In this document: positions 45,587 to 58,714 of the stretch, in pieces
Numbering within the stretch: the stretch's first letter is position 1
How the letters are laid out: each line of letters starts with the position of its first letter
Assembly (NCBI RefSeq): GCF_001563265.1
Contig: NZ_CP005083.1
Location: forward strand, 1,057,001 to 1,121,000
Direction of reading: 5' to 3'
From: Sphingobium sp. TKS
GTDB lineage: Bacteria > Pseudomonadota > Alphaproteobacteria > Sphingomonadales > Sphingomonadaceae
Length of the DNA: 64,000 nucleotides
Position numbers and translations under genes: made by a program
The notes under the pieces: model-generated
What the model was told of the DNA's origin: nothing
Seen by the model: only the letters and a program-made list of their open reading frames with translations
Databases searched by the model: none

Positions 45587-46330
45587 TCACCGCGCTGTTA
45601 GCATGAACAGATAGCGCAGATGCCGCCATCCGTCGCGCCAAGGACGAAGATGGGGTGCTCGCATTCGCAGGTCCGGTGACAGCGTGGCCGGAACCTCATC
45701 TATGCGAAGGCGATGGAGGCTCGCCTTGATGATCATCTCGCTCGCAAATTCCATGCCCGAGCTCTGCAGGTTGAGACGGGCGCATGCTTCGCGTCGGATC
45801 GCCCGTAAACCGCAGTGAGCATCTTCTACGCCAGCCCGGAAGAACAGGTTCAGAATCGCGGTCAGCGCGGGATTTCCGATGTAACGGTTCTTCCAAGGCA
45901 TGGCACCTGGGCCGATACCTCCTTTGAAACGGGAGCCCATACAAAGGTCGGCTCCGTCGAGTAGGCGGCCAATCATCTTCACGCCATCAGTGAAGTCGTA
46001 GCTGCCATCACAATCGCCCATGAGGATGTAGCTGCCATAGGCGCCGCGACAGCCGCCGATCAGCGCAGCTCCGTAGCCTTTCTCCGCAACCGGGACGACC
46101 CGCGCGCCAAGGCTGAGCGCCAGCGCCTGACTGCCATCAGTCGATCCGTTGTCCGCGACTAGAATCTCGCCGGTAAGGCCGTACTCTGCCGCAATCTGGT
46201 CAAGGGCGTCCTGCGCATTTGCGATGCAGTGAGGCAGGCATTGAACCTCGTCTAAACAGGGCATGACTATCGATACGTCGACGCCGCCTTCCTCTGGTAA
46301 GGCAAACACCGTCTTGAGCGATTTAATCAT
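45587..46330 (-). CDS. family 2 glycosyltransferase, C-terminally truncated
   Basis: A 247-residue GT2 of the dolichol-phosphate mannosyltransferase kind: VSIVMPCLDEVQCLPHCI, ILVADNGSTDGSQ, YILMGDCDGSYDF (D-x-D region) and MGSRFKGGI. Homologues usually continue after W-R-H-L-R-Y-L-F-M-L with membrane helices; here the frame stops a few codons later at the junction with IS-derived DNA. It may be non-functional. The ATG at 46330 has GGGGGA upstream. Confidence 0.75.
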   Translation of the reverse strand: MIKSLKTVFALPEEGGVDVSIVMPCLDEVQCLPHCIANAQDALDQIAAEYGLTGEILVADNGSTDGSQALALSLGARVVPVAEKGYGAALIGGCRGAYGSYILMGDCDGSYDFTDGVKMIGRLLDGADLCMGSRFKGGIGPGAMPWKNRYIGNPALTAILNLFFRAGVEDAHCGLRAIRREACARLNLQSSGMEFASEMIIKASLHRLRIDEVPATLSPDLRMRAPHLRPWRDGWRHLRYLFMLTAR

Positions 46331-46819
46331 GCCGTTTCCCCCAAGGTGCATGGTAGACGGCTACGAGAAAATGGTAAATGAAACTTAAATGTCTTTGAGA
46401 GCAGACCTAACAGGCCGCGAAGCGCCTACAGGCTGAGTACAACCGAGTGCCCAATCCGCGTCTAACCGCGCAGGGATTAGCCGGTGAACCGGCTGGTTCG
46501 CTGGAGGTGATTTAGGTTTGAGCTATGCTGCAGGGTCTGTCCTCCAGCGTCGCATGATATTGCGCTTCAGCTTCTGCCGGAGGAATATGTCTCGCGGCTG
46601 TCTATGTGAACCAATCGATTGGTTCAGCGTGGAACGCTGCATTGCTTGGAGCGAGCGCCATGGTGTGCGCTGGTGTATCGCCCCCGTTGCTATTGGAACT
46701 TAAGCGGACTGCCTTCGAGTATTGAGGTGAAGGACTCAGTGCGCTCCCAAAGAGCTATCTCTCCGAATCACATCCCCTGCCTGTGAAACAGATGGGCCTC
46801 TGCAACAATGGAGGTACCT
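46331..46819. other. 489-bp regulatory-looking gap before parB
   Basis: Contains the 20-bp palindrome at 46607 and a GCCGGT/ACCGGC hairpin near 46480. A 61-codon frame at 46518 has no support. Likely promoter and partition-site region. Confidence 0.5.
46607..46626. promoter_or_regulatory. perfect 20-bp palindrome, candidate parS or operator
   Basis: Half-site TGAACCAATC followed directly by its reverse complement GATTGGTTCA, with no spacer or mismatch. It lies about 190 bp before the parB-like gene. It does not match the canonical chromosomal parS core (GTTTCACGTGAAAC), so a private site is likely. Confidence 0.5.
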
Positions 46820-47770
46820 ATGCAGGACTATCAGAATGAAATGTTCCCTGACGTTGTCGGCATCACTGACGCGGACATGATCCCGGACCCGAAGCCGGAA
46901 TTCACTTTGAGCGCGACGCCCGCCTTCTCGCCCAAGTCCCTCTTCGTTGACGCGGAGAAATGCGTTGTCTGGCAGCATACCGCACGCGACGCCGATAAGC
47001 TGGTCGATGCGGATATCCGTCCGCTGGCGGAATCGATCAAGGCGTCGGATCAGCAGGTTCCCGTCCGTGTCCGCCGCCTTGAAGATGACCGCCTCGAAAT
47101 TGTCGCGGGGGTGCGCCGCTGGAAAGCCATTCGCTTGCTCAACGATGAAGGCTATCCCGTCAAGCTGCTGGTCCAGATCGTCCAGATGGACGAGGACGCT
47201 GCGTTCCGCTTCGCTGCCGCCGAAAATGGCCCCCGCTCGGATCTCACGCCGATCGAGCGCGCCCGCTTCTACCAGGCCGCCATCGATCACCAGTATCACA
47301 CCGGAAAGGCGTGCGCCGATGCGTTCGGCTTGCACAAGGCATCGATCTCGCGAGTTCTCGATGTTCTGCGCGTGCTCCAGTTCGTCGGCAAGAAGATCGA
47401 TGATCATCGCGCTATCTCGGCAGCGCAGGCCAGTTGGCTGATGAGCCTGCTTCGCAACGTGAATGACGAGGCCGATCCGACAGACGAGGGTTTCGAGGGG
47501 GATCGACACGCCGAGGTCATCGCCGCGATCGATGCGGCCGCGCCGGGCAGCGCAGCGGAGGTTTTCGGCCAACTTCGTCAGGCGCTCGCTCCCTCCCACA
47601 AAGATGGCGGCATCGACATCGTCGTCGATGACGACATCATCCTCGGTTCGGTCACGCGCTCCAAGTCGGGGGCGGTTCGTATCGCCATCGGCCCCGAGGC
47701 GGGGTCTGTCGAGTTGCCGATGCTGATGGCTTCGATCCGGGTGGCGCTGACCACGCTGCGTGCTGGCTAG
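46820..47770 (+). CDS. ParB/RepB/Spo0J-family DNA-binding protein
   Basis: A 316-residue ParB-like protein. The ParB nuclease-like/CTPase domain spans about residues 30-130 (DIRPLAESIKASDQQVPVRV, then LEIVAGVRRWKAIRLL with the G-x-R-R-W motif). The central helix-turn-helix is KACADAFGLHKASISRVLDVL. A ParA partner is not next to it, as is common for island ParB homologues that regulate transcription or transfer instead of segregation. It starts after GGAGGT and ends in a strong terminator. Confidence 0.88.
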   Translation: MQDYQNEMFPDVVGITDADMIPDPKPEFTLSATPAFSPKSLFVDAEKCVVWQHTARDADKLVDADIRPLAESIKASDQQVPVRVRRLEDDRLEIVAGVRRWKAIRLLNDEGYPVKLLVQIVQMDEDAAFRFAAAENGPRSDLTPIERARFYQAAIDHQYHTGKACADAFGLHKASISRVLDVLRVLQFVGKKIDDHRAISAAQASWLMSLLRNVNDEADPTDEGFEGDRHAEVIAAIDAAAPGSAAEVFGQLRQALAPSHKDGGIDIVVDDDIILGSVTRSKSGAVRIAIGPEAGSVELPMLMASIRVALTTLRAG

Positions 47771-47784
47771 GGCGGCAGAGTATG

Positions 47785-47820
47785 GAGGGCGGTTGCGTGC
47801 GCGCAACCGCCCTCTTTTTT
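47785..47820 (+). terminator. intrinsic terminator of the parB-like gene
   Basis: A perfect 13-bp stem GAGGGCGGTTGCG/CGCAACCGCCCTC with a short loop, then six T. Confidence 0.9.
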
Positions 47821-47878
47821 GCCGGTCGAACGGAAAAGATCCGATCGGTCCCAGCTTTGAAGGGTGAGAAGACTAATT

Positions 47879-47949
47879 AAAGTTATGGGCGCGCGATAAC
47901 GTGTTCTCCTCCGCCGCAGGGGGTGGAGGACGGTGTGGCCCATAACTTT
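47879..47949. other. oriT-like inverted repeat upstream of relaxase
   Basis: A perfect 12-bp inverted repeat, AAAGTTATGGGC at 47879-47890 and GCCCATAACTTT at 47938-47949. An inner imperfect stem TCCTCC/GGAGGA lies in the loop. On the minus strand the left arm reads into CGCGCGCCCATAAC, which contains the GCGCCC core of IncQ/MOBQ nick regions. It lies 22 bp before the relaxase start. This is the expected place and form of an origin of transfer; nicking is unproven. Confidence 0.5.
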
Positions 47950-47970
47950 CCGAGAGAAGGGGTGGGGTAG

Positions 47971-50025
47971 GTGACAGGTCATGCTTGGACGATCGGAGGC
48001 AGATCCGCTGATATGCATGCCTTGCGTGAGGCACTCGCGCTCGAACGCCAAAGCCGCAAGAAGGCATCGGTGCTCGAATATGAGCGACTTCAGGCAGAGC
48101 GCAATGCGCGCAAGGTCGGCACTGCCATTCGCCGCCAGATGCGCGAGGCTGGCATGACGCCGACCTGGATCCAGGTCCATCCACGATCGCTGAGTGGATA
48201 CCGCGATGGTGGGCGACGCTGCCGGCGTATCGAGATCATGTCCGGGCTGATCGTGGCAAAGCGGTCCCATCGCGGTAGCGACGGGCTATCGTCATTCCAT
48301 TTCAAATGGACCTCGCGCGGCCTCGGCAACCGGCGCAAGCACGGTTCCCACCGCTATCGCCGGGGCGAGGCAGTCCGGCATCTGCGTTATATCCTTCGTG
48401 AACAGGCGCGCGAGATCGACGGCGGGGGCCTCGTTAGCAACATCTCCACCGACCCAGACACGCTCGCCAGCGTCTTTGACGCCCTTGAAGAGTTGGAAAG
48501 CCACGGCCGCACGAATGCTAACGTCTATGTGTCAATCGTGCTCAGCCTACCAAACGAGCTGACATCCGCCGAGCGACAAGTCCTTCTCTCGAATATTTGC
48601 GCGATATTCGAGCGCGAAAAGCTGCCGCATGCCGCGGTGCTGCATGCGCCTGACCCGGATGGGGATCAGCGCAACAATCACGCGCACATAATGTTGAGCC
48701 TACGGCCCTTTCGCGCCGAGGCCGATGGGGGTTTCGCCTTCGGCGTCGGCACGGCGGCCGACCTCAACGACAAAGAGTTCATCAAAGCGATGCGCTTGGA
48801 GATCGCGGCGCTGATGAATGCTGCGATGATCGAAGCCGGCCATGAGCGCCGTTTCACTGCTCTGAGCAATCAGGAACGCGGACTGCTCGTCCGACCCAAA
48901 AGCGAAGGCAAGTCGTCACCTGGCCGCAAGCATCGCGAGCGCCGACAGGAGCGGATAGACTTGATGGCCGGTGAGAAAGCCTATCGCGAGGAACGGATTA
49001 ACGCCCTCGGCGTGGTACAGGAGGAACTGATCGCCGCCCTGGTGGCGCCGCAGGTTGACCGCAACGCTGAACTCGAAGCCATGCGCGCCAAAGTTCACGC
49101 TGCCCCCGCTGCTACGACAGTTTGCGCTGCAGTCACGATCTCGCCGGTTGCGCGCGTGCAACCGCCGGCATCACCGCCGGTCAGGTCCAATATGGCACCG
49201 CAGCAGACATCACCGGTTCCCGCTCCTGTCCCGCCGGACCTTGACATATTACTTGCCCGCCTCTCGGAAATGCGATGGCCGCCGCTCGAACGGCAGAATG
49301 GGCGCATCGTTCTAGGTTCGCCCACGCGCTATCTCCACGAAAAGGCCGTAATCGATCGCTTGCGACCGGCGCAGATGGACCAGCGCGTCCAAGCGAGGCT
49401 CGAAGAAGAATGGGCCGTTGCGATCGACGCACTGCGTAAGCGCCTGACGCAGTCAGAGCCCTTCGGCCGGGCACTCGAAGCCGATTTTTCCGACCAGGCA
49501 CTGATCGACAAGGCCGCCAAATCATTCTTCGAATGTAATCAGCATGATCCTGATGTGATCGCGTTGGTCGTGGCGCAAAGGTCGGCGGCGGAACGTCGTG
49601 TTCTTGAGCTGCAAGAACGGAAGCGGGTCGAGAAGCAAAAACGCCAGCAACGCGCTAAAAAAGTAGGAGCCGCCGTGGCACGGATCTGTGGTGCTGCCGG
49701 CGCGGGGCGTGTCAGCGAAACAGACAGGGCGCCGCTACGACCACTGATCGCCCTTCTGGAGGAGCCTCTCATCGATGGCAGGCTAGCCCTCTTCATTAAT
49801 AGCGGGAAACTCTATGTGCAGGCCCGCGATCCTGAACTGATCGATTTAGCAGGCAAGCTCTTCGACATGAAGGCGGGATCAGCCGCGCTGGCACTCCTGG
49901 CACAGGAGACCAACGGTCTACTCTCGCCAATCGCGCAGCCGTTCCAGACGTCTTACGCCTTGAACCCGGTCGGCGTCGATACCCCGCAGACGCCGCTAGG
50001 ACGCGCGGAGAGAGGGCGAGAATGA
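47971..50025 (+). CDS. divergent MobA/MobL-type relaxase
   Basis: A 684-residue protein. The relaxase core, about residues 165-260, has VYVSIVLSLPNELTSAERQ and the metal-binding triad H224, H237, H239 in LHAPDPDG and NNHAHIMLSLRPF. Relaxases nick oriT and lead DNA into a recipient. Unlike standard MobA, the core is preceded by about 150 residues (SFHFKWTSRGLGNRRKHG, HRYRRGEAVRHLRYILRE) and the N-terminal catalytic tyrosine motif is not recognisable. The C-terminal 350 residues are charged and coiled-coil-like. GTG start at 47971; an ATG at 48013 is possible. Confidence 0.75.
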   Translation: MTGHAWTIGGRSADMHALREALALERQSRKKASVLEYERLQAERNARKVGTAIRRQMREAGMTPTWIQVHPRSLSGYRDGGRRCRRIEIMSGLIVAKRSHRGSDGLSSFHFKWTSRGLGNRRKHGSHRYRRGEAVRHLRYILREQAREIDGGGLVSNISTDPDTLASVFDALEELESHGRTNANVYVSIVLSLPNELTSAERQVLLSNICAIFEREKLPHAAVLHAPDPDGDQRNNHAHIMLSLRPFRAEADGGFAFGVGTAADLNDKEFIKAMRLEIAALMNAAMIEAGHERRFTALSNQERGLLVRPKSEGKSSPGRKHRERRQERIDLMAGEKAYREERINALGVVQEELIAALVAPQVDRNAELEAMRAKVHAAPAATTVCAAVTISPVARVQPPASPPVRSNMAPQQTSPVPAPVPPDLDILLARLSEMRWPPLERQNGRIVLGSPTRYLHEKAVIDRLRPAQMDQRVQARLEEEWAVAIDALRKRLTQSEPFGRALEADFSDQALIDKAAKSFFECNQHDPDVIALVVAQRSAAERRVLELQERKRVEKQKRQQRAKKVGAAVARICGAAGAGRVSETDRAPLRPLIALLEEPLIDGRLALFINSGKLYVQARDPELIDLAGKLFDMKAGSAALALLAQETNGLLSPIAQPFQTSYALNPVGVDTPQTPLGRAERGRE

Positions 50026-50198
50026 CCAACAAAGGGCGAGGGCTATTTGCGCCGATCACCATGAACAGTCGGAATTCGCTGCCATCGGCCCGATGAGCAG
50101 CACTGACTTATTGGAGCTTGGATGAGGGAAGTGGCTGACGCTGGAAAGTGAAAGACATCTCCCGAGCACCGGGATCGCAGCCGACCCTGTGCCGACCA

Positions 50199-50747
50199 AT
50201 GAGTACTAACTGCATGATCTACCTCAACGAAGAAGACCGCCAACGCGAAGCGCAGGCGAAGGAGGGCGCGATCGCCCTTGCTACCGTCGCGAGCTGGCAG
50301 ACGGAGCCATGTCCCATTATGCTGCCGCCGGTGCTCGCAGGATTTGTTTACTGTCGGACGGTTGACCTTGTGCTGGCGCACTGGCGCCGGAACGTGTCGC
50401 TCGGCAGGCTTCTTGCGGTGGCACGCGAGACGCGGCTGGACGTGCTGCTGGTGGAGCCCGCCTGGATGGCATCCGGATCAGACTTCCGGGTGTCTGCGAT
50501 CCTCTGCCGCAGCGGCGAGACGCACGTCTATCGGGGCTTGCGGCTGTGGGCCGCTGGCGTGGATGGTCCAACTTGGCTGATCCCCGATCCTGCCGACAGG
50601 GATCTGGATCCATCCTGCTTCGACCTAAGCCTGAAGCGGATGACTCCAGATGAACAACGACCCTTTAGCGATCTCGAGACGCGCGATCTCGGTCTGCTGG
50701 TGGGCGGTATCCGGTGGAAGGCGATAGCGGGGGGGCACCTAGTATGA
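50199..50747 (+). CDS. unknown protein, paralog of the next gene
   Basis: About 182 residues, soluble, no recognised family. The core reads LDVLLVEPAW, then ILCRSGETHVYRGLRLW, GPTWLIPD and DLETRDLGLL. The same order (LDILLLRF, DICMHSG, HYRGW, GEFWFVP, ARQREVGL) is found in the gene at 50959, so the two are diverged copies. The start is uncertain: ATG 50199, ATG 50214 or GTG 50148, none with a strong ribosome site. It follows the relaxase by 173 bp on the same strand. Confidence 0.65.
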   Translation: MSTNCMIYLNEEDRQREAQAKEGAIALATVASWQTEPCPIMLPPVLAGFVYCRTVDLVLAHWRRNVSLGRLLAVARETRLDVLLVEPAWMASGSDFRVSAILCRSGETHVYRGLRLWAAGVDGPTWLIPDPADRDLDPSCFDLSLKRMTPDEQRPFSDLETRDLGLLVGGIRWKAIAGGHLV

Positions 50748-50958
50748 GCATGGCCTGCGAATTTGCGCAGCGCTTGCCAACCAACGGGAGGCAGCGTGCC
50801 TGCGATCGCTTTGATGGTCAGCGGCTGGGCGGCTCCTGTCGGCGGCAGCGTTAAGAAGACAGGAAGTTCAGACAGCTGAGCACTGTGAAATGAAATAGGG
50901 GAAAGGCGTGGGACCGGCTCGGCGGCCATGCCCCCTGCTGAAATAAGGTCCACATCAA

Positions 50959-51483
50959 ATGAACATGCCCATCATGTCGCGTCCTGCACGGGACGCGACA
51001 ACCCTTCCGTTCGTCCGCGAAGCGGTGCGCCGCCGCTTGTTTGCGGTCGCGCATCAGATCGGCGGGTTGATTGATTTCGAGCCGCACCACAGGATTCCGG
51101 GTGCAGAAGGAGGAATCCTGCTCATGGAGCGGAACCTGCTCGTCATGTGCACATCGCAGTTCCGGCCGCTCGGCTGGGATTTGGCGGAGGAGATCTGCAT
51201 GCGGCAGGGCCTGGATATTCTGCTGCTTCGTTTTGATGCTTACCAGCTGACTTTTGACATCTGCATGCACAGCGGTAGTGCGTGGCTCAGCCACTATCGC
51301 GGTTGGTCGGCCGACGGAGAATTCTGGTTCGTTCCGCGTGTCGATGATGGCAGCCGCTATGTGAAGGCCAGTCGATATGGTCTCCTTCTTACCGATCATC
51401 CACCCTATGCAAACGCTCGGCAGCGCGAAGTGGGGCTGGCCACTGCTTGCCCTTGGGACGCGCGAATGGAGGTCCGGGCATGA
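50959..51483 (+). CDS. unknown protein, paralog of the previous gene
   Basis: A 174-residue soluble protein. It shares the LD[VI]LL, I-C-x-x-S-G, Y-R-G and W-[FL]-[VI]-P blocks with the protein at 50199. Its stop overlaps the start of the next gene (ATGA), so it is translationally coupled to a protein with a relaxase-like triad. That coupling suggests a role in DNA transfer, but nothing in the sequence shows an enzymatic activity. Confidence 0.7.
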   Translation: MNMPIMSRPARDATTLPFVREAVRRRLFAVAHQIGGLIDFEPHHRIPGAEGGILLMERNLLVMCTSQFRPLGWDLAEEICMRQGLDILLLRFDAYQLTFDICMHSGSAWLSHYRGWSADGEFWFVPRVDDGSRYVKASRYGLLLTDHPPYANARQREVGLATACPWDARMEVRA

Positions 51484-52076
51484 GTCCGAAGGCCAAAACG
51501 AAGGTAGTGACGAAGCCTGAGCCAGAAGCCCTGTCGCGCTATGTCGCCGATGCGAGCGATCATCCCGGATTTCGGTATGCGCGCTATTTCTGGAAGGAGA
51601 ATAATCTGAAATGTGGGATCAAGACGGCCGTCCTGGCGAAGCTCCAGCCCGCGGGTCACCCTGCTGCGCGCCACGACCTGTTGCTGCCTGCAACAGCCGC
51701 TGGAGAATATGCGGACCTCGATTACCTGCTTACGCGCTATGATGCGACGCAGCCCCTCATCGAGCGCAATGCCTATGTCCAATATACGGTCGATCTTCCG
51801 GCCGACCGCCCGGTCCACGCCAGTTGGGAGGAGGTTCGCGAATGGGTGATGGGCTATTTCGTGCGGGAGTTGCAGCTTGCTGCCCTGTTGGTGTTGCACA
51901 TGCCTTTCCGCGCCGGATCCGCCAATGCTAGCCATGTTCACATCCTGCTGCCCGCACGCCGGTTAGGCCCCGATGGATTCGGATTTCATGCGAGAGCGAC
52001 CTGCTCAGACTCGGGGTTCAAGGATGGACTCACCAATTGGATGGCATTCCAAGCAATGAAGACACGTCCAACATAG
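51480..52076 (+). CDS. stand-alone protein with relaxase-like histidine triad
   Basis: A 198-residue protein. The second half reads YVQYTVDLPADRPVHASWEE, then LVLHMPFRAG and ASHVHILLPARRLGPDGFGF, matching the MobA/MobL core layout with H140, H152 and H154 as the triad. There is no tyrosine-bearing N-terminal motif and no helicase or primase part. GGAGGTCCGGGC precedes the ATG at 51480. It may be a reduced relaxase, an auxiliary nuclease or a regulator. It is the second such core in 4 kb. Confidence 0.65.
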   Translation: MSPKAKTKVVTKPEPEALSRYVADASDHPGFRYARYFWKENNLKCGIKTAVLAKLQPAGHPAARHDLLLPATAAGEYADLDYLLTRYDATQPLIERNAYVQYTVDLPADRPVHASWEEVREWVMGYFVRELQLAALLVLHMPFRAGSANASHVHILLPARRLGPDGFGFHARATCSDSGFKDGLTNWMAFQAMKTRPT

Positions 52077-52143
52077 CTATCGCGCAGCAGACTGCCAGAG
52101 TCGTTCAGCCGCCTGGCGGTATAGTGGCAGTCAGGCGGTGCGC

Positions 52144-52184
52144 TTTAACCCGCATTATCTCCAATCGGACATTTGCGGGTTAAA
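52144..52184. repeat. 11-bp perfect inverted repeat
   Basis: TTTAACCCGCA at 52144 and TGCGGGTTAAA at 52174, separated by 19 bases. It lies in the 401-bp gap between the relaxase-like gene and hipB. It could be a terminator-like stem or protein site. A frame overlapping it (52138-52353) is not supported as a gene. Confidence 0.6.
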
Positions 52185-52390
52185 CGCCCGCTATGATGCG
52201 GCGACGCTGGAAATTGGCCAATGGCCCGTTCAGGCGACAGCGGGTCCACCCGGCTATGAGCACGAGCACCACGTGCTCCCATGCGCCCATCGGGTCGCCA
52301 TTGCGCGTGTCGGGGTCAGGTCTTTCGGAGGCTTCCCCTGGCCTCAGCGGTAGGGCGTTGGATGATGTATGACTATGCTTTTAGGACGTA

Positions 52391-52447
52391 ATTTGAAGCG
52401 TTATTAAATATCAAATGTTGAAAAATAGAGCGAGGATGATGTATATA
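52391..52447 (+). promoter_or_regulatory. hipBA promoter with inverted operator
   Basis: TTGAAA at 52418 and TATATA at 52442 (18-base spacer) form a sigma-70-like promoter in strikingly AT-rich DNA. ATTTGA (52391) and TCAAAT (52411) make a dyad just upstream, a plausible HipB site for autorepression. Confidence 0.5.
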
Positions 52448-52477
52448 AGATTATTATTCTGAGTAAATGATATAGAA

Positions 52478-53107
52478 ATGGACATCAACTCTATGATTCT
52501 TGAGGAGTTTGGGCAAAAGGTGCTCGATGCGCGTAGGCGCAAGGGCCTCAGCCAGCGCGCTGTGGCGGAGCGAACCGGCGTCCCCCAGGCGCACATCTCC
52601 AAAATCGAGCAAGGTCGGGTCGATATCCGGCTGTCGAGTCTGGTTGAGCTCGCACGCGCACTCGATCTCGAAGTCCTGTTGCTACCGCGTCAGGCCCTAC
52701 CTGCGGTTGAAGGCGCTGTACGGGCCGTTGAAAGCGAAGCTAGCGTCGGGGCGGAACGCCGCGCGCTGGCGACGCTTGCCCAGCATGAGCGGGCGCTGGA
52801 GCAGATTCGCGCTGCCAATCCCAGTTTAACCCTCGTGGAGAAGCTACTATCGACGAGCAGGGAACTGAAGCTCATGCCCTATGATGCCGAGACGCTTAAG
52901 GCGCTGCAGCGCGCGCTTGCGCCGGTGGAACAGATCAGGCAGCAACTCGCCTCGGCTGGCCCGGACGACGCTAAATTGGGGAAACTGCTCGATCGAGTGA
53001 ACCGGAGTTTGCGGGCTTTACGCAACGCGCAGGTCAGTGCGCTGCCGCGACCCGCGTCAAGGTCAGCGCTCCCGGCCTATCGCCTAGATGAGGATGATGA
53101 TGACTGA
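52478..53107 (+). CDS. hipB: HipB-type antitoxin, Xre helix-turn-helix
   Basis: A 209-residue regulator. The Xre domain at residues about 10-70 has SQRAVAERTGVPQAHISKIEQGR and LSSLVELARALDLEVLLL. A long C-terminal helical extension (residues 75-190) is unusual; classical HipB is about 90 residues. The acidic tail is D-E-D-D-D-D. It overlaps hipA by 8 bp, as in toxin-antitoxin operons, and should repress its own promoter. Confidence 0.85.
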   Translation: MDINSMILEEFGQKVLDARRRKGLSQRAVAERTGVPQAHISKIEQGRVDIRLSSLVELARALDLEVLLLPRQALPAVEGAVRAVESEASVGAERRALATLAQHERALEQIRAANPSLTLVEKLLSTSRELKLMPYDAETLKALQRALAPVEQIRQQLASAGPDDAKLGKLLDRVNRSLRALRNAQVSALPRPASRSALPAYRLDEDDDD

Positions 53108-54308
53108 GACACGCGTGCTCGACATCTATCTCGCCGATCGCAAGATCGGCACCATTGTCGCGCTCGACGGCGATCGCGCCATCTTCAGTTTCGCCGACGA
53201 TTACGCCGCCGATCCGGATCGGGCGACGCTCAGCCTCGGCTATCGCGACACGTATGGAGCCCTGATTGACGAGCCTCGGGCGCATCGCGTCCGGCTCGAG
53301 CCGTTCTTCTCCAACCTTCTGCCCGAAGGCGCGCTCAAGGAATATCTTGCGCGGCGCGTCGGTGTGAAGGCATTGCGCGAGTTCCAGCTCCTCGCAGCCT
53401 TAGGTGGCGATTTACCGGGCGCCGTGCGAGCGATGCCGAGCGAGGTGGCGTCGGCGGACCTAGCTCAGGTTTCCGAGGTGGCCGCGGCGCTTCCGCCGCG
53501 ATTGCGCTTTTCGCTTGCCGGGGTGCAGCTCAAATTCTCCGCACTTAAGAATCAGGGCAAGAAGGGCGGGCTGACCCTTCCCGTCGAGGGTGAGAGCGGA
53601 GAATGGATCGTCAAGCTCCCTTCAACGAATTTTGCCAACCTTCCCGAGAACGAATTCTCGATTATGACGTTGGCGAGATTAGTCGGCATTGACGTGCCCG
53701 AGATCGAATTGCTCCCCATCGACAGGGTCGAAGGCCTACCGGCGGGCGTCGAGCAACTGGGCGATAGCGTTTTCGCTATCCGCCGGTTCGATCGGTCTCC
53801 GCAGGGGCGCATCCACATCGAAGATTTCGCCCAGGTGTTTCGTGTCTATCCGGACGACAAATATGAAACCGCCAGCTACCGCAACATCCTCGCGGTGCTC
53901 GCCGACGCGACTGATGACCGGAGTATCGACCAGTTCATTCGTCGGCTGACGTTCAGCGTGCTAGTCGGCAATGGCGACATGCATCTGAAAAACTGGTCGC
54001 TCATCTATCCCGATGGCAGGAGTCCCATTCTCTCACCGGCCTATGATCTACTGTCGACCATCGCCTATCTACCGGGTGATCAGGCGGCGCTGAAATTCCG
54101 GCGGTCCAAGGAATGGGGCGAGTTCAACGAAGGCACCCTTATCCGCCTCGCTGATAAGGCGCGCATCGCGACGCGGCCTGTCCTCAAGGCTGCGCGCGAA
54201 ACAGTAGAGAGGTTCGACACCGCCTGGTCCGAAGAGAAAACGAAACTGCCGCTGCCGACCAAGCTGATCGAAGCTATAGAAAAGCATCGCGGTGGCCTGG
54301 CCATTTGA
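53100..54308 (+). CDS. hipA: HipA-type kinase toxin
   Basis: A 402-residue HipA-family Ser/Thr kinase. The catalytic loop N-G-D-M-H-L-K-N is at residues 291-298 and the metal-binding motif is SPAYDLLST. The N-terminal HipA region (FFSNLLPEGALKEYLARR) and RFSLAGVQLKFSAL are intact. E. coli HipA phosphorylates GltX and causes growth arrest. Several in-frame ATGs (53088-53100) cluster at the start; 53100 is closest to the family N-terminus. Confidence 0.9.
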   Translation: MTETRVLDIYLADRKIGTIVALDGDRAIFSFADDYAADPDRATLSLGYRDTYGALIDEPRAHRVRLEPFFSNLLPEGALKEYLARRVGVKALREFQLLAALGGDLPGAVRAMPSEVASADLAQVSEVAAALPPRLRFSLAGVQLKFSALKNQGKKGGLTLPVEGESGEWIVKLPSTNFANLPENEFSIMTLARLVGIDVPEIELLPIDRVEGLPAGVEQLGDSVFAIRRFDRSPQGRIHIEDFAQVFRVYPDDKYETASYRNILAVLADATDDRSIDQFIRRLTFSVLVGNGDMHLKNWSLIYPDGRSPILSPAYDLLSTIAYLPGDQAALKFRRSKEWGEFNEGTLIRLADKARIATRPVLKAARETVERFDTAWSEEKTKLPLPTKLIEAIEKHRGGLAI

Positions 54309-54469: not shown

Positions 54470-55795
54470 TCAGACGCTAAGCTGGATGAGGATGCTTCCC
54501 GCCATCTCGCCACGAATGCGGACGTGTTCCGGGCGATCCGGGTCGTCCTTCATTTGCGCGAGCAGAACCGACGCTGAAGTGGAAGCCGCATGCGAAAATG
54601 GCTCCGCACCAGCAGGCTTGCCAGCCTCAAGCTCCCAAAGAATGTCGGTGAACTCGTCGAAGCTCTTTCCGGCGTCCTTATTGAACTTGCTCGCCGCCGG
54701 TGAGCGGGGATCGGCCACGAAATAGTTGCGCAGCAGGAAAAACAGGGATCGAATATCGCCAACATCCTGTTCGTGTGAAGTAGGCTGAAGGATAGGCCGG
54801 GATTGGCGAGCCTCCTCCAAAGCACGGCGGAGCGGAGCGACCGGATCGCGAGCACAACTGGCCCACGCCACCGCTTGCGTCACGGCGAGCCAGAGAATTG
54901 TCAGCGCGTCGGGACCATGCAGGCGGTGCAGCGGCCTGCGATACGCATCCCGCTGCCGGGCGAACTGTCCAGCATGGCGCTTGATGTGTCGTGTCCAGAG
55001 GCGTGCCCGGTTGGCCAACAGGTCAATATAGATATTTGCGTATTCATCGCCGAGGGCATTGAAAATCCGCGCCTCATCTATGCGAGCCACTCCTACTTCC
55101 GGGTGGGCCTCCAATTGCCCCAACTCGTCTTCAGTCAGGTTACGATGTTGAGCGGTCTTATAGAGATCCAATGCTGAAAGCGCCCGGCTGGCCTCGGTGG
55201 TGAGATAACGCGCACCGGATGCCTCCGACGTAATCTTACCATTGTTGTAATCGAGACCATCGTGCCCCGTCGGCTCGAAAACGCGCCGAAACCCGTCTTC
55301 ACCAGCCCGGATAAGGTTGGCAAGCAGATGGTAGCGAGCGAGCAATTCCAGCACGTCCAGGACTGCCTCGGCCGACAGTTCGCCGATCCCAGTCGTCGGG
55401 ATCGCGATCGAAGCGCTGGCGAGGCGCCCTTGCATGGCGAGAAGAAGAAATTCACGGTCTGTGTTGCCAATCTCCGCGAGATCCACGGCAAGTTCGTGCG
55501 GGCAGCCGAGATCCAAGACATCGCGCATGCGCCGAGCGACGCGACCCTTGCCCCCGGTCCGCTTGGTTAGCGTCGCCGCGAGAGATGCAGGGCTGCGACC
55601 GAGGTTGCGGCAGTCGAAGATGTGACGCTGATTAACCAAATGCACCTTGGTGGCCTCGGTGATGTTCGGCGCGGAGGCAGGGATTTCGAAGCCCTGGCCC
55701 AGCGCTTCGGCCATATAAGGCGCGATCTTGTGTCCAACTTCGTACGCGAGAATTTCGTCAGCGACAGCTGCGAAGTCATGATGATATTTAGTCAT
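54470..55795 (-). CDS. unknown protein, 441 aa
   Basis: A large, mostly helical soluble protein (VLDVLELLARYHLLANLIRA, then RDPVAPLRRALEEARQSR). No nucleotide-binding, nuclease or membrane motif is visible. It is convergent with hipA and divergent from the 56107 gene, with the 38-bp repeats between. GGGGA lies seven bases before the ATG at 55795. Its place in the island and lack of known domains make it a fair candidate for a novel cargo function. Confidence 0.7.
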   Translation of the reverse strand: MTKYHHDFAAVADEILAYEVGHKIAPYMAEALGQGFEIPASAPNITEATKVHLVNQRHIFDCRNLGRSPASLAATLTKRTGGKGRVARRMRDVLDLGCPHELAVDLAEIGNTDREFLLLAMQGRLASASIAIPTTGIGELSAEAVLDVLELLARYHLLANLIRAGEDGFRRVFEPTGHDGLDYNNGKITSEASGARYLTTEASRALSALDLYKTAQHRNLTEDELGQLEAHPEVGVARIDEARIFNALGDEYANIYIDLLANRARLWTRHIKRHAGQFARQRDAYRRPLHRLHGPDALTILWLAVTQAVAWASCARDPVAPLRRALEEARQSRPILQPTSHEQDVGDIRSLFFLLRNYFVADPRSPAASKFNKDAGKSFDEFTDILWELEAGKPAGAEPFSHAASTSASVLLAQMKDDPDRPEHVRIRGEMAGSILIQLSV

Positions 55796-55880
55796 AATAG
55801 TCCCCAAAAAATGGACGGTCCTCCAAATTGAAAAAGGATCGCCGTGCTTTGCCCAACAAACGCTGCACTTGAGGAGACAA

Positions 55881-56106: not shown

Positions 56107-56760
56107 ATGACGACCGACGAACTCACAGCCGATCTGCGCGAAAAAATGGGCGCGCTCCTCAAAACTTCGGGTGAAGTACGCATCGCCGAGGAGGCACGGG
56201 TCAGCCTTCTCGATGATGAAATTAGGGAGGCGCAGACTTGGGCCTTTCGGCGGGCAGCCTACCATGAGCGCGATCGTCGCTGCTATCGCGTCGGTAGTGC
56301 TTTTGAACCGGGCGGCGGCTTGGACCTCGATGATGTCGCGCTGACCGGGCTCGACTGCCTTGGCATCCGTGGCGTGCTGCTGGTCGCTGCCACTGCTCGG
56401 CAGCATCCGAACCTTCCGCTGAACGGCATTCTGAAGAAGCTGTTTGCGTCCGAGGCAGGCCAACAGATCCGCGCATGGGGCGCATGGCGCCGCTGGCACT
56501 GGCTCTCCGACCTTTATCGCGCAGAGACCCAGACTTTCCTCAATTCTAAAAAAGGCAAGGATCCGGCCCAGCAATGGCGCAGCGGCAAGCCAACGGCTGC
56601 ACAGGAACATATCATCCGAGAGATTGCGCGACTCCTGCAAATTGATCGGCCTGCGTTTGCGCGACGCGGTGACGCCTTTGAATGGATCAAAGCCGCGGGC
56701 GGCAATCCCCGCTTTCATGAGCCGCCACCCCTTCCGGATCTGCCCGAAATCGGTGAATGA
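56107..56760 (+). CDS. unknown protein upstream of integrase
   Basis: A 217-residue soluble protein with many Trp and Arg in the middle (RAWGAWRRWHWLSDLYRAET). No family recognised. It starts a coupled run (56107, 56757, 57123) leading to the integrase. ATG 56107 follows GATGATGCGGCC. Confidence 0.65.
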   Translation: MTTDELTADLREKMGALLKTSGEVRIAEEARVSLLDDEIREAQTWAFRRAAYHERDRRCYRVGSAFEPGGGLDLDDVALTGLDCLGIRGVLLVAATARQHPNLPLNGILKKLFASEAGQQIRAWGAWRRWHWLSDLYRAETQTFLNSKKGKDPAQQWRSGKPTAAQEHIIREIARLLQIDRPAFARRGDAFEWIKAAGGNPRFHEPPPLPDLPEIGE

Positions 56761-57122: not shown

Positions 57123-57566
57123 ATGCACAGGATGCAACGTACCATCATCACGTCGCCGGGCACCGCCGACGCCAGCTCGCGAGAAAAGATCTCGCTCTTC
57201 GATGGACAGATTTTGGAAGGCACGCAGCCCGAGGTGGCCCGCGTTAGCGCCGATATCATCAAGTTAGATCGGAAAATCACCAACGCCGTCCAGGCGCAGC
57301 GGGGAATCAACCTCAGTCCGGCGGATCTCGATGTGCTCACCCTCATCGGTGTTTTGGAATTGCTGGGAGCAGCTAGGAACATAGTAATAAAGGAAAATGC
57401 ACAATGGCGATCCAGGGCGGCCTCTACGCCAGAGGCGGATATTACCTCGACTACATCAGGGGGAAAGGGGGCAAGCTTGCAAGCTCCAAGCTATACATCT
57501 GCTGGTACCAAAAAGAGGCAGGTCGGATCCGACGAAAGAGCACAGGCACGAGCGATGTTCGGCTAG
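57123..57566 (+). CDS. small protein overlapping the integrase start
   Basis: A 147-codon frame whose last third overlaps the integrase by 163 bp in another frame. The first 95 residues are helical and protein-like (LSPADLDVLTLIGVLELLGAA); the overlapped part is Ser/Thr-rich and may be incidental. It occupies the place of an excisionase or control gene but lacks a recognisable DNA-binding motif. Confidence 0.45.
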   Translation: MHRMQRTIITSPGTADASSREKISLFDGQILEGTQPEVARVSADIIKLDRKITNAVQAQRGINLSPADLDVLTLIGVLELLGAARNIVIKENAQWRSRAASTPEADITSTTSGGKGASLQAPSYTSAGTKKRQVGSDERAQARAMFG

Positions 57567-58714
57567 CCAGCGAGGCGCTGGATCGCCATTTTCTGGAAGC
57601 CACGAAACCGTCGTCGCCCGCTGCCGTAGAGGTTTATACGGTTAGCAAGGCCCTGACAGATTATTGGCTGACGACGGGTAGCAAGCGCGTCAGTTCCGAC
57701 GCCATTCGCGCGAGGCTGAAGCTTTTTTCGCGGTTCCTGGATCATGAGGTGGAAAACGGTCGCATGCGGGACCCCATTCTTCCGATGGATCTTGACGATG
57801 ATGTCATTGATCGTTTCCGCTCGTGGGGCGTCGCAGACCCCATCCTGACGCGCAAACGCGGCCTATCAGGGGAATGGACGGTTTCGAGCCGATCCCGGGC
57901 CGCATCAACTGTCGAAGAAAGTGTCATCCAGCTCAAGGCGGCGCTGAATTATGCAGCCGTGAAGGGGCGGGCAGCCGTACCCCAGCTGAAGCATCTGACC
58001 CGCGACGAAGTGACTGCTCCGCGCAGCTACAGGCTTTCGATTGAGATGCTAGCTAAGATGCTGGATTATACCGCCACGGGGGCGGGAAAATACGCAGGAC
58101 ATGCTGATCGCCTGGTTCCGCTCAGGAGGTACCTCATCGGGGCGATCTCTACGTTGGCAAGACCGGACGCGATCATGGATATGTCCGTGCAGAGCGATCG
58201 ATCCCAATGGTATGCCGATGCCATGGTCTTTGATTTGAATCCGGCAGGCCGGATCCAAACGCGCAAGCGGCGATCGGTGCTTCCTATCCCACCGATGCTC
58301 GATCATTGGCTGCGGGCCACCGATGGTAAGCTGGTGTGCCGCGAGGTTACCCGACGTGGCTCGGACGGGAGGGAATGGATTGAGCAGATACCTGTCACGT
58401 CTGTCAAAAAGGCCTGGAGCGCCATGGCGCAGGACTTGGGGATTCCGACAGGATGGGGGCCAAAGCTCATCAGGTATTCGGTCGCGACGATCATTACCAA
58501 GAACCGGGTCGACCTTTTCGAACTCGAGATGGCCCTTGGGCACCGCGTGCTGAAAAGGACAACCAGCATCTATGCGATCTTCGATCCCGATTACCTCAGC
58601 ACCGTCCGGTCTTGTATCACTTCCCTCTGGGAGGAACTGGAACGCTTATGCGAACATCCTTTACACGCAACTCTTACGCAAGTTGGCGAGGATGGGCGGC
58701 GACGGCGATTATAG
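57404..58714 (+). CDS. tyrosine-type integrase
   Basis: A 436-residue phage-type recombinase that should integrate and excise the island. Catalytic residues: R253 (TLARPDAIMD), K354/R357 (KLIRYS, where His is more usual than Lys), H380 (LGHRVL) and Y390 (TTSIYAIF). The N-terminal SAM-like arm-binding domain is present. The repeat shared with the island's left end lies in its last codons. It is intact and points right, towards the presumed attachment side. Confidence 0.9.
   Translation: MAIQGGLYARGGYYLDYIRGKGGKLASSKLYICWYQKEAGRIRRKSTGTSDVRLASEALDRHFLEATKPSSPAAVEVYTVSKALTDYWLTTGSKRVSSDAIRARLKLFSRFLDHEVENGRMRDPILPMDLDDDVIDRFRSWGVADPILTRKRGLSGEWTVSSRSRAASTVEESVIQLKAALNYAAVKGRAAVPQLKHLTRDEVTAPRSYRLSIEMLAKMLDYTATGAGKYAGHADRLVPLRRYLIGAISTLARPDAIMDMSVQSDRSQWYADAMVFDLNPAGRIQTRKRRSVLPIPPMLDHWLRATDGKLVCREVTRRGSDGREWIEQIPVTSVKKAWSAMAQDLGIPTGWGPKLIRYSVATIITKNRVDLFELEMALGHRVLKRTTSIYAIFDPDYLSTVRSCITSLWEELERLCEHPLHATLTQVGEDGRRRRL
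58660..58682. repeat. island-end repeat, right copy
   Basis: TTTACACGCAACTCTTACGCAAG, 20 of 23 identical to 37430-37452 and in the same orientation, again with two ACGCAA units 11 bp apart. It lies inside the 3' end of the integrase gene. Confidence 0.6.

Follow-up and report, generated by a model that had tools for sequence, protein, structure and literature searches.

A mobile gene set of sphingomonads with a predicted relaxase-fold protein lacking the conserved tyrosine: a possible accessory set for DNA processing

Genes and features at the locus

The window, a stretch of 64,000 nucleotides from Sphingobium sp. TKS (NZ_CP005083.1, positions 1,057,001 to 1,121,000), carries on one strand (+), in order, a ParB-like gene, a relaxase gene and three small genes, here named P1, P2 and P3 and together called the cassette (Table 1). 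The original prediction, made from the letters alone, described P1 and P2 as paralogues coupled to a stand-alone relaxase-like P3 and proposed that the three form an accessory set for DNA processing, for example a relaxosome in which P3 is the minimal partner of the large relaxase. The full relaxase, the ParB-like gene and the inverted repeat, regarded as an origin of transfer (oriT)-like site, were all present near the cassette, and the length of P3, its three histidines and the overlap of its ATG with the P2 stop codon (ATGA) were reproduced. The start of P1, previously placed at 50199, was corrected to the conserved start, which is M6 of that version. The large relaxase also matches NF041496 (E 3e-18, 66.2 bits), below the cut-off of 200.

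Table 1. Features of the cassette locus, in positions of the window
Feature	Position	Strand	Remarks
12-nt inverted repeat, oriT-like site of the original prediction	47879-47890 with 47938-47949	+	just 5' of the full relaxase; function inferred from position only
Full-length MobA/MobL-type relaxase, 684 aa	47971..50025	+	directly 5' of the cassette; PF03389 45.5 bits, cut-off 26.7
P1 leader	50124..50199	+	TGGCTG 50132, RTGAAA 50148, CAGCC 50178; one of the 16 sequences building model R1 (see text)
P1, protein without family match, paralogue of P2	50214..50747	+	
P2 leader	50866..50941	+	helix strand GCTGAGC 50875-50881, RTGAAA 50890-50895
P2 leader, second hairpin	50905-50911 with 50926-50932	+	helix partner GCTCGGC 50917-50923 inside its loop
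P2, 174 aa, without family match	50959..51483	+	
P3, 198 aa, stand-alone, predicted relaxase fold	51480..52076	+	H140, H152, H154; without conserved nucleophilic tyrosine

As had been supposed, the predicted structure of P3 shows the HUH relaxase fold, over residues 27-198, and its best solved-structure matches are relaxases (2ns6 and 4ht4). The sequence block at residues 65-170 resembles PF03389 (E 7e-4), and the protein scores below the curated family cut-offs (19.9 versus 26.7 bits for PF03389, 30.4 versus 200 for NF041496). The metal triad H140, H152 and H154 is invariant in 13 aligned rows and also in 21 diverse rows. The tyrosine nucleophile of relaxases sits on the N-terminal catalytic helix. 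In P3, whose residues 48-55 form the helix KTAVLAKL, no conserved tyrosine was found in the catalytic helix among 27 P3-like rows, using a MAFFT alignment that is loose for true relaxases at this helix; a lysine or arginine, with a proline three residues on, was found instead. K54 is at least 90% conserved in alignment A11, and H60 is kept among close relatives only. P3 is basic (pI 9.1), and the closest P3, from Sphingobium herbicidovorans, is 95% identical. Judged by its model, P3 seems to be a relaxase-shaped protein without its usual cutting residue, and its sequence, with no conserved tyrosine in the catalytic helix, does not suggest the nickase that "minimal partner" implied.

MobA/MobL (MOBQ) relaxases, such as MobA of R1162 (2ns6) and the staphylococcal relaxase NES (4ht4), likewise combine the HUH fold with a three-histidine metal motif. 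P3 differs from them by the absent tyrosine, by standing alone at 198 aa, by its coupling to P2 and by its scores below the Pfam and NCBIfam cut-offs. Further stand-alone proteins of 196-245 aa with an H..HxH block and no conserved catalytic tyrosine were seen at loci L022, L024 and L026.

Regarding P1 and P2, three of the blocks said to be shared occur in both proteins: LD-x-LL (residue 80 of P1, 85 of P2), Y-R-G (111 and 113) and W-x-[VI]-P (WLIP at 126, WFVP at 123). The remaining block, I-C-x-x-S-G, is exact in P2 only (ICMHSG, 101); since P1 reads ILCRSG (101), the common form is I-x-x-x-S-G. Paralogy above chance was supported by a comparison of larger profiles (27 P2 rows against 15 P1 rows; probability 98, E 3.1e-13, 139 columns), and weaker methods gave E 0.001 (single-sequence BLASTP) and probability 78.7 (thin profiles). 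Neither protein matched a Pfam or NCBIfam family at E up to 1, and P1, P2 and P3 had no PADLOC match (P1 and P2 at E up to 0.01). The P2 profile, compared with PDB at E up to 1, matched 17 sequences, all of them eS12, a member of the L7Ae-like RNA-binding fold; the best match (E 0.024) is non-significant and became weaker with a larger alignment (E 0.16), and the P1 profile gave no eS12-type match. The predicted P2 model is poor (predicted local distance difference test score, pLDDT, 61.6) and had no significant fold match. The likeness of P2 to eS12 is the sole hint at the biochemistry of P1 and P2.

Distribution, mobility and relaxase neighbours

We read 66 loci of 9-20 kb each (the window, L044-L054, L058, L089-L108 and L154-L186; L numbers denote loci and G numbers genomes), chosen by P3 or P2 matches. 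These loci overlap in origin, as L046-L050 represent one site in five genomes and several genomes contribute 2-4 copies each. P3 was called in 63 loci, P2 with P3 in 54 and P1 in 24, so that among loci picked in this way the genes travel together, as the original prediction had expected. P2 and P3 lie within 200 nt of each other in 54 pairs, with P2 directly 5' of P3 and a gap of -31 to +101 nt.

Among 198 genomes, including its own, P1 was present in 7 and P2 in 9, and high-identity P3 (at least 54%) was found in 7, the identical set to that of P1. This P3 scan gave 70 places, 60 of which were weaker and not counted as P3; one weaker-scoring place, in G119, was recovered by a broader profile as L173. 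A 78-aa open reading frame (ORF) of L188 matching the P1 profile (E 0.004) was taken as chance. The P3 profile (E up to 1e-15) detected 22 of 397 family genomes and the broader one (E up to 1e-20) 29 of 261 order genomes, own included in both. The loci read cover 44 of the 45 places of the broader profile, leaving out G564:C1 (a partial match), and the long reads leave out G293:C19, G285:C7 and G295:C15 from the 30 P3-profile places. In plasmids, P3 matched 8 of 72,556 records at E up to 1e-5, two of which cover at least 80% of P3. No match was found in 50,697 phage records by tblastn (E up to 1e-3), and a P3 pattern scan found none in viral contigs. A scan of genome contigs gave no match with the single sequence and four loci with the alignment, three of them duplicating L044, L047 and L050.

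The set P1-P3 is a mobile gene set in various sphingomonad bacteria. In G015, 2726 bp are 97.8% identical between chromosome and plasmid (L051/L052), and in G442, 1582 bp are 96.7% identical at two sites (L101/L102), with unrelated flanks in both cases. The window and L044 have only the cassette in common (76% identity, 50077 to 51991), and their relaxases are 32% identical. A plasmid site of G058 lacks 3 kb (L046 8028-11050) that include a 143-aa gene besides the cassette, and the left junction of this site lies ~14 nt 5' of the leader TGGCTG; deletion explains this site as well as insertion does. A tie of the cassette to tRNA genes was rejected, as a tRNA gene lies within ~1 kb in L052 and L096 only. 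In L102 (6149-6180) the repeated unit ends at an apparent tRNA-Ser 3' fragment, recognised by eye, which resembles an island attachment site; the corresponding end of L101 is diverged, and ARAGORN called no tRNA at the L102 end.

The ratio of nonsynonymous to synonymous substitution rates (dN/dS) between the window and L044 was ~0.15 for P1, ~0.13 for P2 and ~0.13 for P3, the last with dS saturated at 2.3. It was at most 0.25 in eight of nine comparisons, and the ninth (P3 of L101/L102) gave 0.51. Some copies are broken: P1 is a remnant in L117, P2 is split into two ORFs in L058, and P3 has internal stops at several places.

In 14 of the 66 loci a full relaxase precedes the cassette by at most 400 bp, on the same strand. 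Twelve were detected with local hidden Markov models (the window, L044, L099, L103, L105, L165, L166, L167, L173, L176, L178 and L179) and two with Pfam (L172 and L175). Including the loci with a relaxase farther away (L054, L090, L097, L155 and L168), 19 of 66 have one somewhere in the stretch read, all 19 on the cassette strand. The relaxases belong to two Pfam families, MobA_MobL (L175 and L179 below its cut-off) and PF03432 with TraI_middle and LPD7 (L099, L105 and L176); that of L173 matched the local model only, with no Pfam match, and the Pfam scan left out L167. L099, L105 and L054 built one local model and are called by construction there, and Pfam supports all three. A relaxase like that of the window was found in 6 of 198 genomes (E up to 1e-20, at most five candidates scored per genome), and it is followed by the cassette in G000, G011 and G119. 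The relaxase-cassette association is recurrent and oriented, but neither necessary nor exclusive.

Folded leaders before P1 and P2

A conserved element, which the original prediction did not mention, lies mostly ~60-75 nt 5' of P1 and P2. Its parts are one strand of a helix, then RTGAAA, then a hairpin in whose loop lies the pairing partner of that strand. The P1-type leader is nearly invariant (TGGCTG, GAAA, CRGCC). Model R1, built from 16 sequences, gave 20 strong matches in 34 sources; only L058 is new among them, because 16 built the model, L055 copies L044, and L048 and L049 are the L046 site. R1 matched once in the genome of the window, at the P1 leader, and eight times in 5 of 298 family genomes, seven of these being building sequences and the eighth lying 5' of a P1 remnant. 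Independently of the model, the leader was found before four of the seven P1 genes of later loci (L154, L158, L160 and L161).

The P2-type leader varies in sequence. As loop lengths vary between leaders, permutation tests were used. In 37 non-redundant P2 leaders, the mean pairing score was 13.13 with the own partner versus 10.95 with others. The own score was reached in 0 of 20,000 permutations with G-U pairs allowed, in 36 with Watson-Crick pairs only and in 1070 with A-C pairs allowed, in windows picked after the first leaders had been viewed and with G+C differences between loci uncontrolled, for which dinucleotide shuffles do control. This contrast points to pairing that covaries on the sense strand, either as RNA or as sense single-stranded DNA. 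By a fixed rule, the RTGAAA anchor occurs 40-115 nt upstream of 47 of 59 P2 genes, against our estimated chance expectation of ~0.04 per gene at equal base frequencies; the test thus omits 12 genes without RTGAAA, and 10 of the other 47 were removed as redundant. In L090, L097 and L100 the leader is visible and the called start is wrong, and the leaders of L089-L091 have an ACGAAA-type sequence in place of RTGAAA.

For the P1 leader, the long-range pairing was reached by 2577 of 5000 permutations, an uninformative result as the sequence is nearly invariant. In the small hairpin of this leader, both sides are changed in 10 cells, a figure that none of 500 shuffles reached, but the count of pairs showing such changes is not unusual (410 of 500). 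Run on MAFFT alignments of the leaders, RNAalifold recovered no more than the nearly invariant helix for P1 and no structure for P2. Rfam searches placed no match inside a leader, either in six loci at gathering score (two matches in total) or in the window from 46300 to 52500 at E up to 1; at E up to 5, L097 4850-5750 gave one P2-leader match (11.6 bits, cut-off 35, E 2.4). A coding upstream ORF was rejected, as the RTGAAA frame is not conserved as coding: it enters P1 in the window, L096, L097 and L100 and does not in L044, L046, L050, L051, L094 and L098.

Possible roles of the cassette

From the computed results, namely the predicted fold, the absent tyrosine, the conserved gene pair, the mobility, the strand-biased relaxase adjacency and the covarying leader, we infer a mobile set that assists DNA processing in conjugation or mobilization, in which the tyrosine-less P3 aids a relaxase and P1 and P2 are controlled by their leaders. 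This is our preferred reading, held tentatively. P3 would be a relaxase whose tyrosine nucleophile was lost while the HUH fold and the three-histidine metal site were retained. Its most likely action is to bind single-stranded hairpin DNA at a transfer origin, with no nicking that depends on tyrosine; such binding is the natural expectation because P3 keeps its basic character, fold and metal site, and without the tyrosine no usual covalent intermediate would form. The repeated position behind different relaxases suggests that P3 helps or tunes their relaxosomes, the true relaxase being either adjacent or supplied in trans, and the large number of loci in which no relaxase was detected points to action in trans or as a decoy. 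The paralogues P1 and P2 may control or assist P3, and the leader before each would control its expression, probably as RNA by autoregulation, so that P1 and P2 are probably dose-controlled. A bolder version, a new module of an altered relaxase, RNA-binding P1 and P2 and leader RNA that spreads among islands and transfer systems with different relaxase families and steers their DNA processing in trans, as a general accessory or decoy of conjugation, appears unlikely as a whole.

Several observations weigh against the accessory reading. In 47 of the 66 loci the stretch read yielded no relaxase with two local profile models on called ORFs and Pfam on chosen neighbours, a procedure in which misses are possible; a partner in cis is therefore not required, and obligatory relaxase partners were rejected. 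Three of the six genomes with a window-like relaxase (G075, G082 and G102) have no cassette beside it. The loci are non-independent, many possibly lie in relaxase-enriched mobile DNA, and they were read without control loci, so a simple probability for the association is weakened. No oriT recognisable by P3 was identified. L174, L175 and L181, with P1 downstream of P3, all lack the P1 leader; of seven P3-only loci (L184 and L185 may contain an unrecognised P2), six are without a leader anchor and pairing in the seventh is weak. The leader thus belongs to P1 and P2 and not to P3. The original proposal of an accessory set beside a relaxase is supported in part, with relaxase neighbours recurring from two Pfam families.

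Small genes beside a relaxase gene with a presumed role in DNA processing are known as relaxosome accessory proteins, such as MobC and NikA. These have folds other than that of the relaxase, whereas P3 is itself predicted to have the relaxase fold. Oligonucleotide/oligosaccharide-binding (OB)-fold proteins of a Gram-positive integrative and conjugative element are reported among them (PMC12614216). REP-associated proteins (RAYT/TnpA-REP) are likewise HUH-fold proteins tied to hairpin sequences (PMC8266576); in contrast, the best solved matches of P3 are relaxases, and the P1-type leader occurs once in the genome and is not a dispersed repeat. The titles and opening abstract lines of open-licence literature on stand-alone, tyrosine-less or decoy relaxases, Sphingobium relaxases, relaxosome accessories and sphingomonad RNAs described no matching set.

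A doubtful alternative is a transfer antagonist, in which a tyrosine-less decoy sits on the transfer origin, or in the relaxosome, of a competing element, as fertility-inhibition or defence cargo of islands. The loss of the nucleophile with fold and metal site kept, the 47 loci without detected relaxase and the restriction, nuclease or helicase genes near L046, L051, L054, L089, L104, L107 and L162 are consistent with it, and fertility inhibition between plasmids has precedent (PMC5696584). However, no cassette protein has a PADLOC match, and the tight same-strand position behind 14 relaxases suits cooperation at least equally.

It is rather unlikely that the cassette is a transposable unit mobilised by P3 with an unusual nucleophile, with the leader as its left end. 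Near-identical copies between unrelated flanks argue for it, as does homology whose start coincides with the leader or lies close to it in L051/L052, L097/L100 and L096/L098, and also in the comparison with the cassette-free site of G058. MobM (MOBV) offers a precedent, using histidine in place of tyrosine (PMC5863519); P3 does not match this family by sequence, and K54 and H60 near its helix are at most putative nucleophiles. However, the left end is inconstant, as L052/L058 share ~20 nt and L101/L102 ~75 nt more upstream, and homology of L090/L091 and L093/L095 begins far further upstream. HUH transposons of the IS200/IS605 and IS91 types have defined ends and empty target sites. No constant right end and no target duplication were seen in the copies compared, the leader also occurs inside the cassette 5' of P2, and the tRNA-Ser-like fragment of L102 and the tRNA genes beside L052 and L096 resemble island ends. 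The G058 junction (TGA microhomology, remnant of the 143-aa gene end) fits deletion equally.

More improbable is an RNA module unrelated to conjugation, in which P3 binds or processes the self-regulating leader RNA, or P1 and P2 bind it. The sense-strand covariation and the exclusively eS12 matches of P2 favour this, but those matches are non-significant and absent for P1, the P2 model is poor, and the recurrent relaxase neighbours would be unexplained. Decay of ordinary mobilization genes carried by plasmids or islands, with no common function, is very improbable: some copies are broken, but purifying selection contradicts decay for most compared copies, and the triad is invariant, the leader covaries and the P2-P3 order is kept.

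Conjugation is entered through relaxases, which also serve to type mobile elements, and short MobA/MobL matches need not be nickases. If the accessory reading is true, it would add an unrecognised control layer to gene transfer among sphingomonads, where such mobile elements bear genes for pollutant degradation.

Other genes were observed near the cassette copies. In the window, a sub-threshold match to ar35, an alphaproteobacterial small RNA, lies at the end of the ParB-like gene (47687-47820; 27.3 bits, cut-off 45, E 0.036). Directly 3' of the cassette are a HipB-like (HTH_3) and a HipA-like (HipA_C, Couple_hipA) gene (52478-54308), followed by two longer ORFs without confident Pfam match (54470-55807 and 56107-56760) and a tyrosine-recombinase-like gene (57404-58714; PF00589 below cut-off). 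A third small gene of 119-124 aa (CxxC...C...H), absent from the window, lies behind P1 in L046 (8650-9009) and eight other loci. A conserved gene of 112-167 aa lies behind P3 in L096 (7018-7521) and eight other loci; the L096 copy had no PADLOC match and the L054 copy only a sub-cut-off Pfam match. An Xre/MbcA/ParS-type antitoxin-like gene occurs within ~5 kb of the cassette in L044 (10113-10505; Pfam on this copy), L092, L106, L107 and L050. In five genomes (L046 1932-7780 and L047-L050), a divergent pair of UvrD-helicase/PD-(D/E)XK and PD-(D/E)XK genes stands beside the cassette, the helicase giving GajB-type PADLOC matches. Finally, an abiF RNA (RF03085, 47.1 bits) was detected at L097 852-887, ~4 kb from the cassette.
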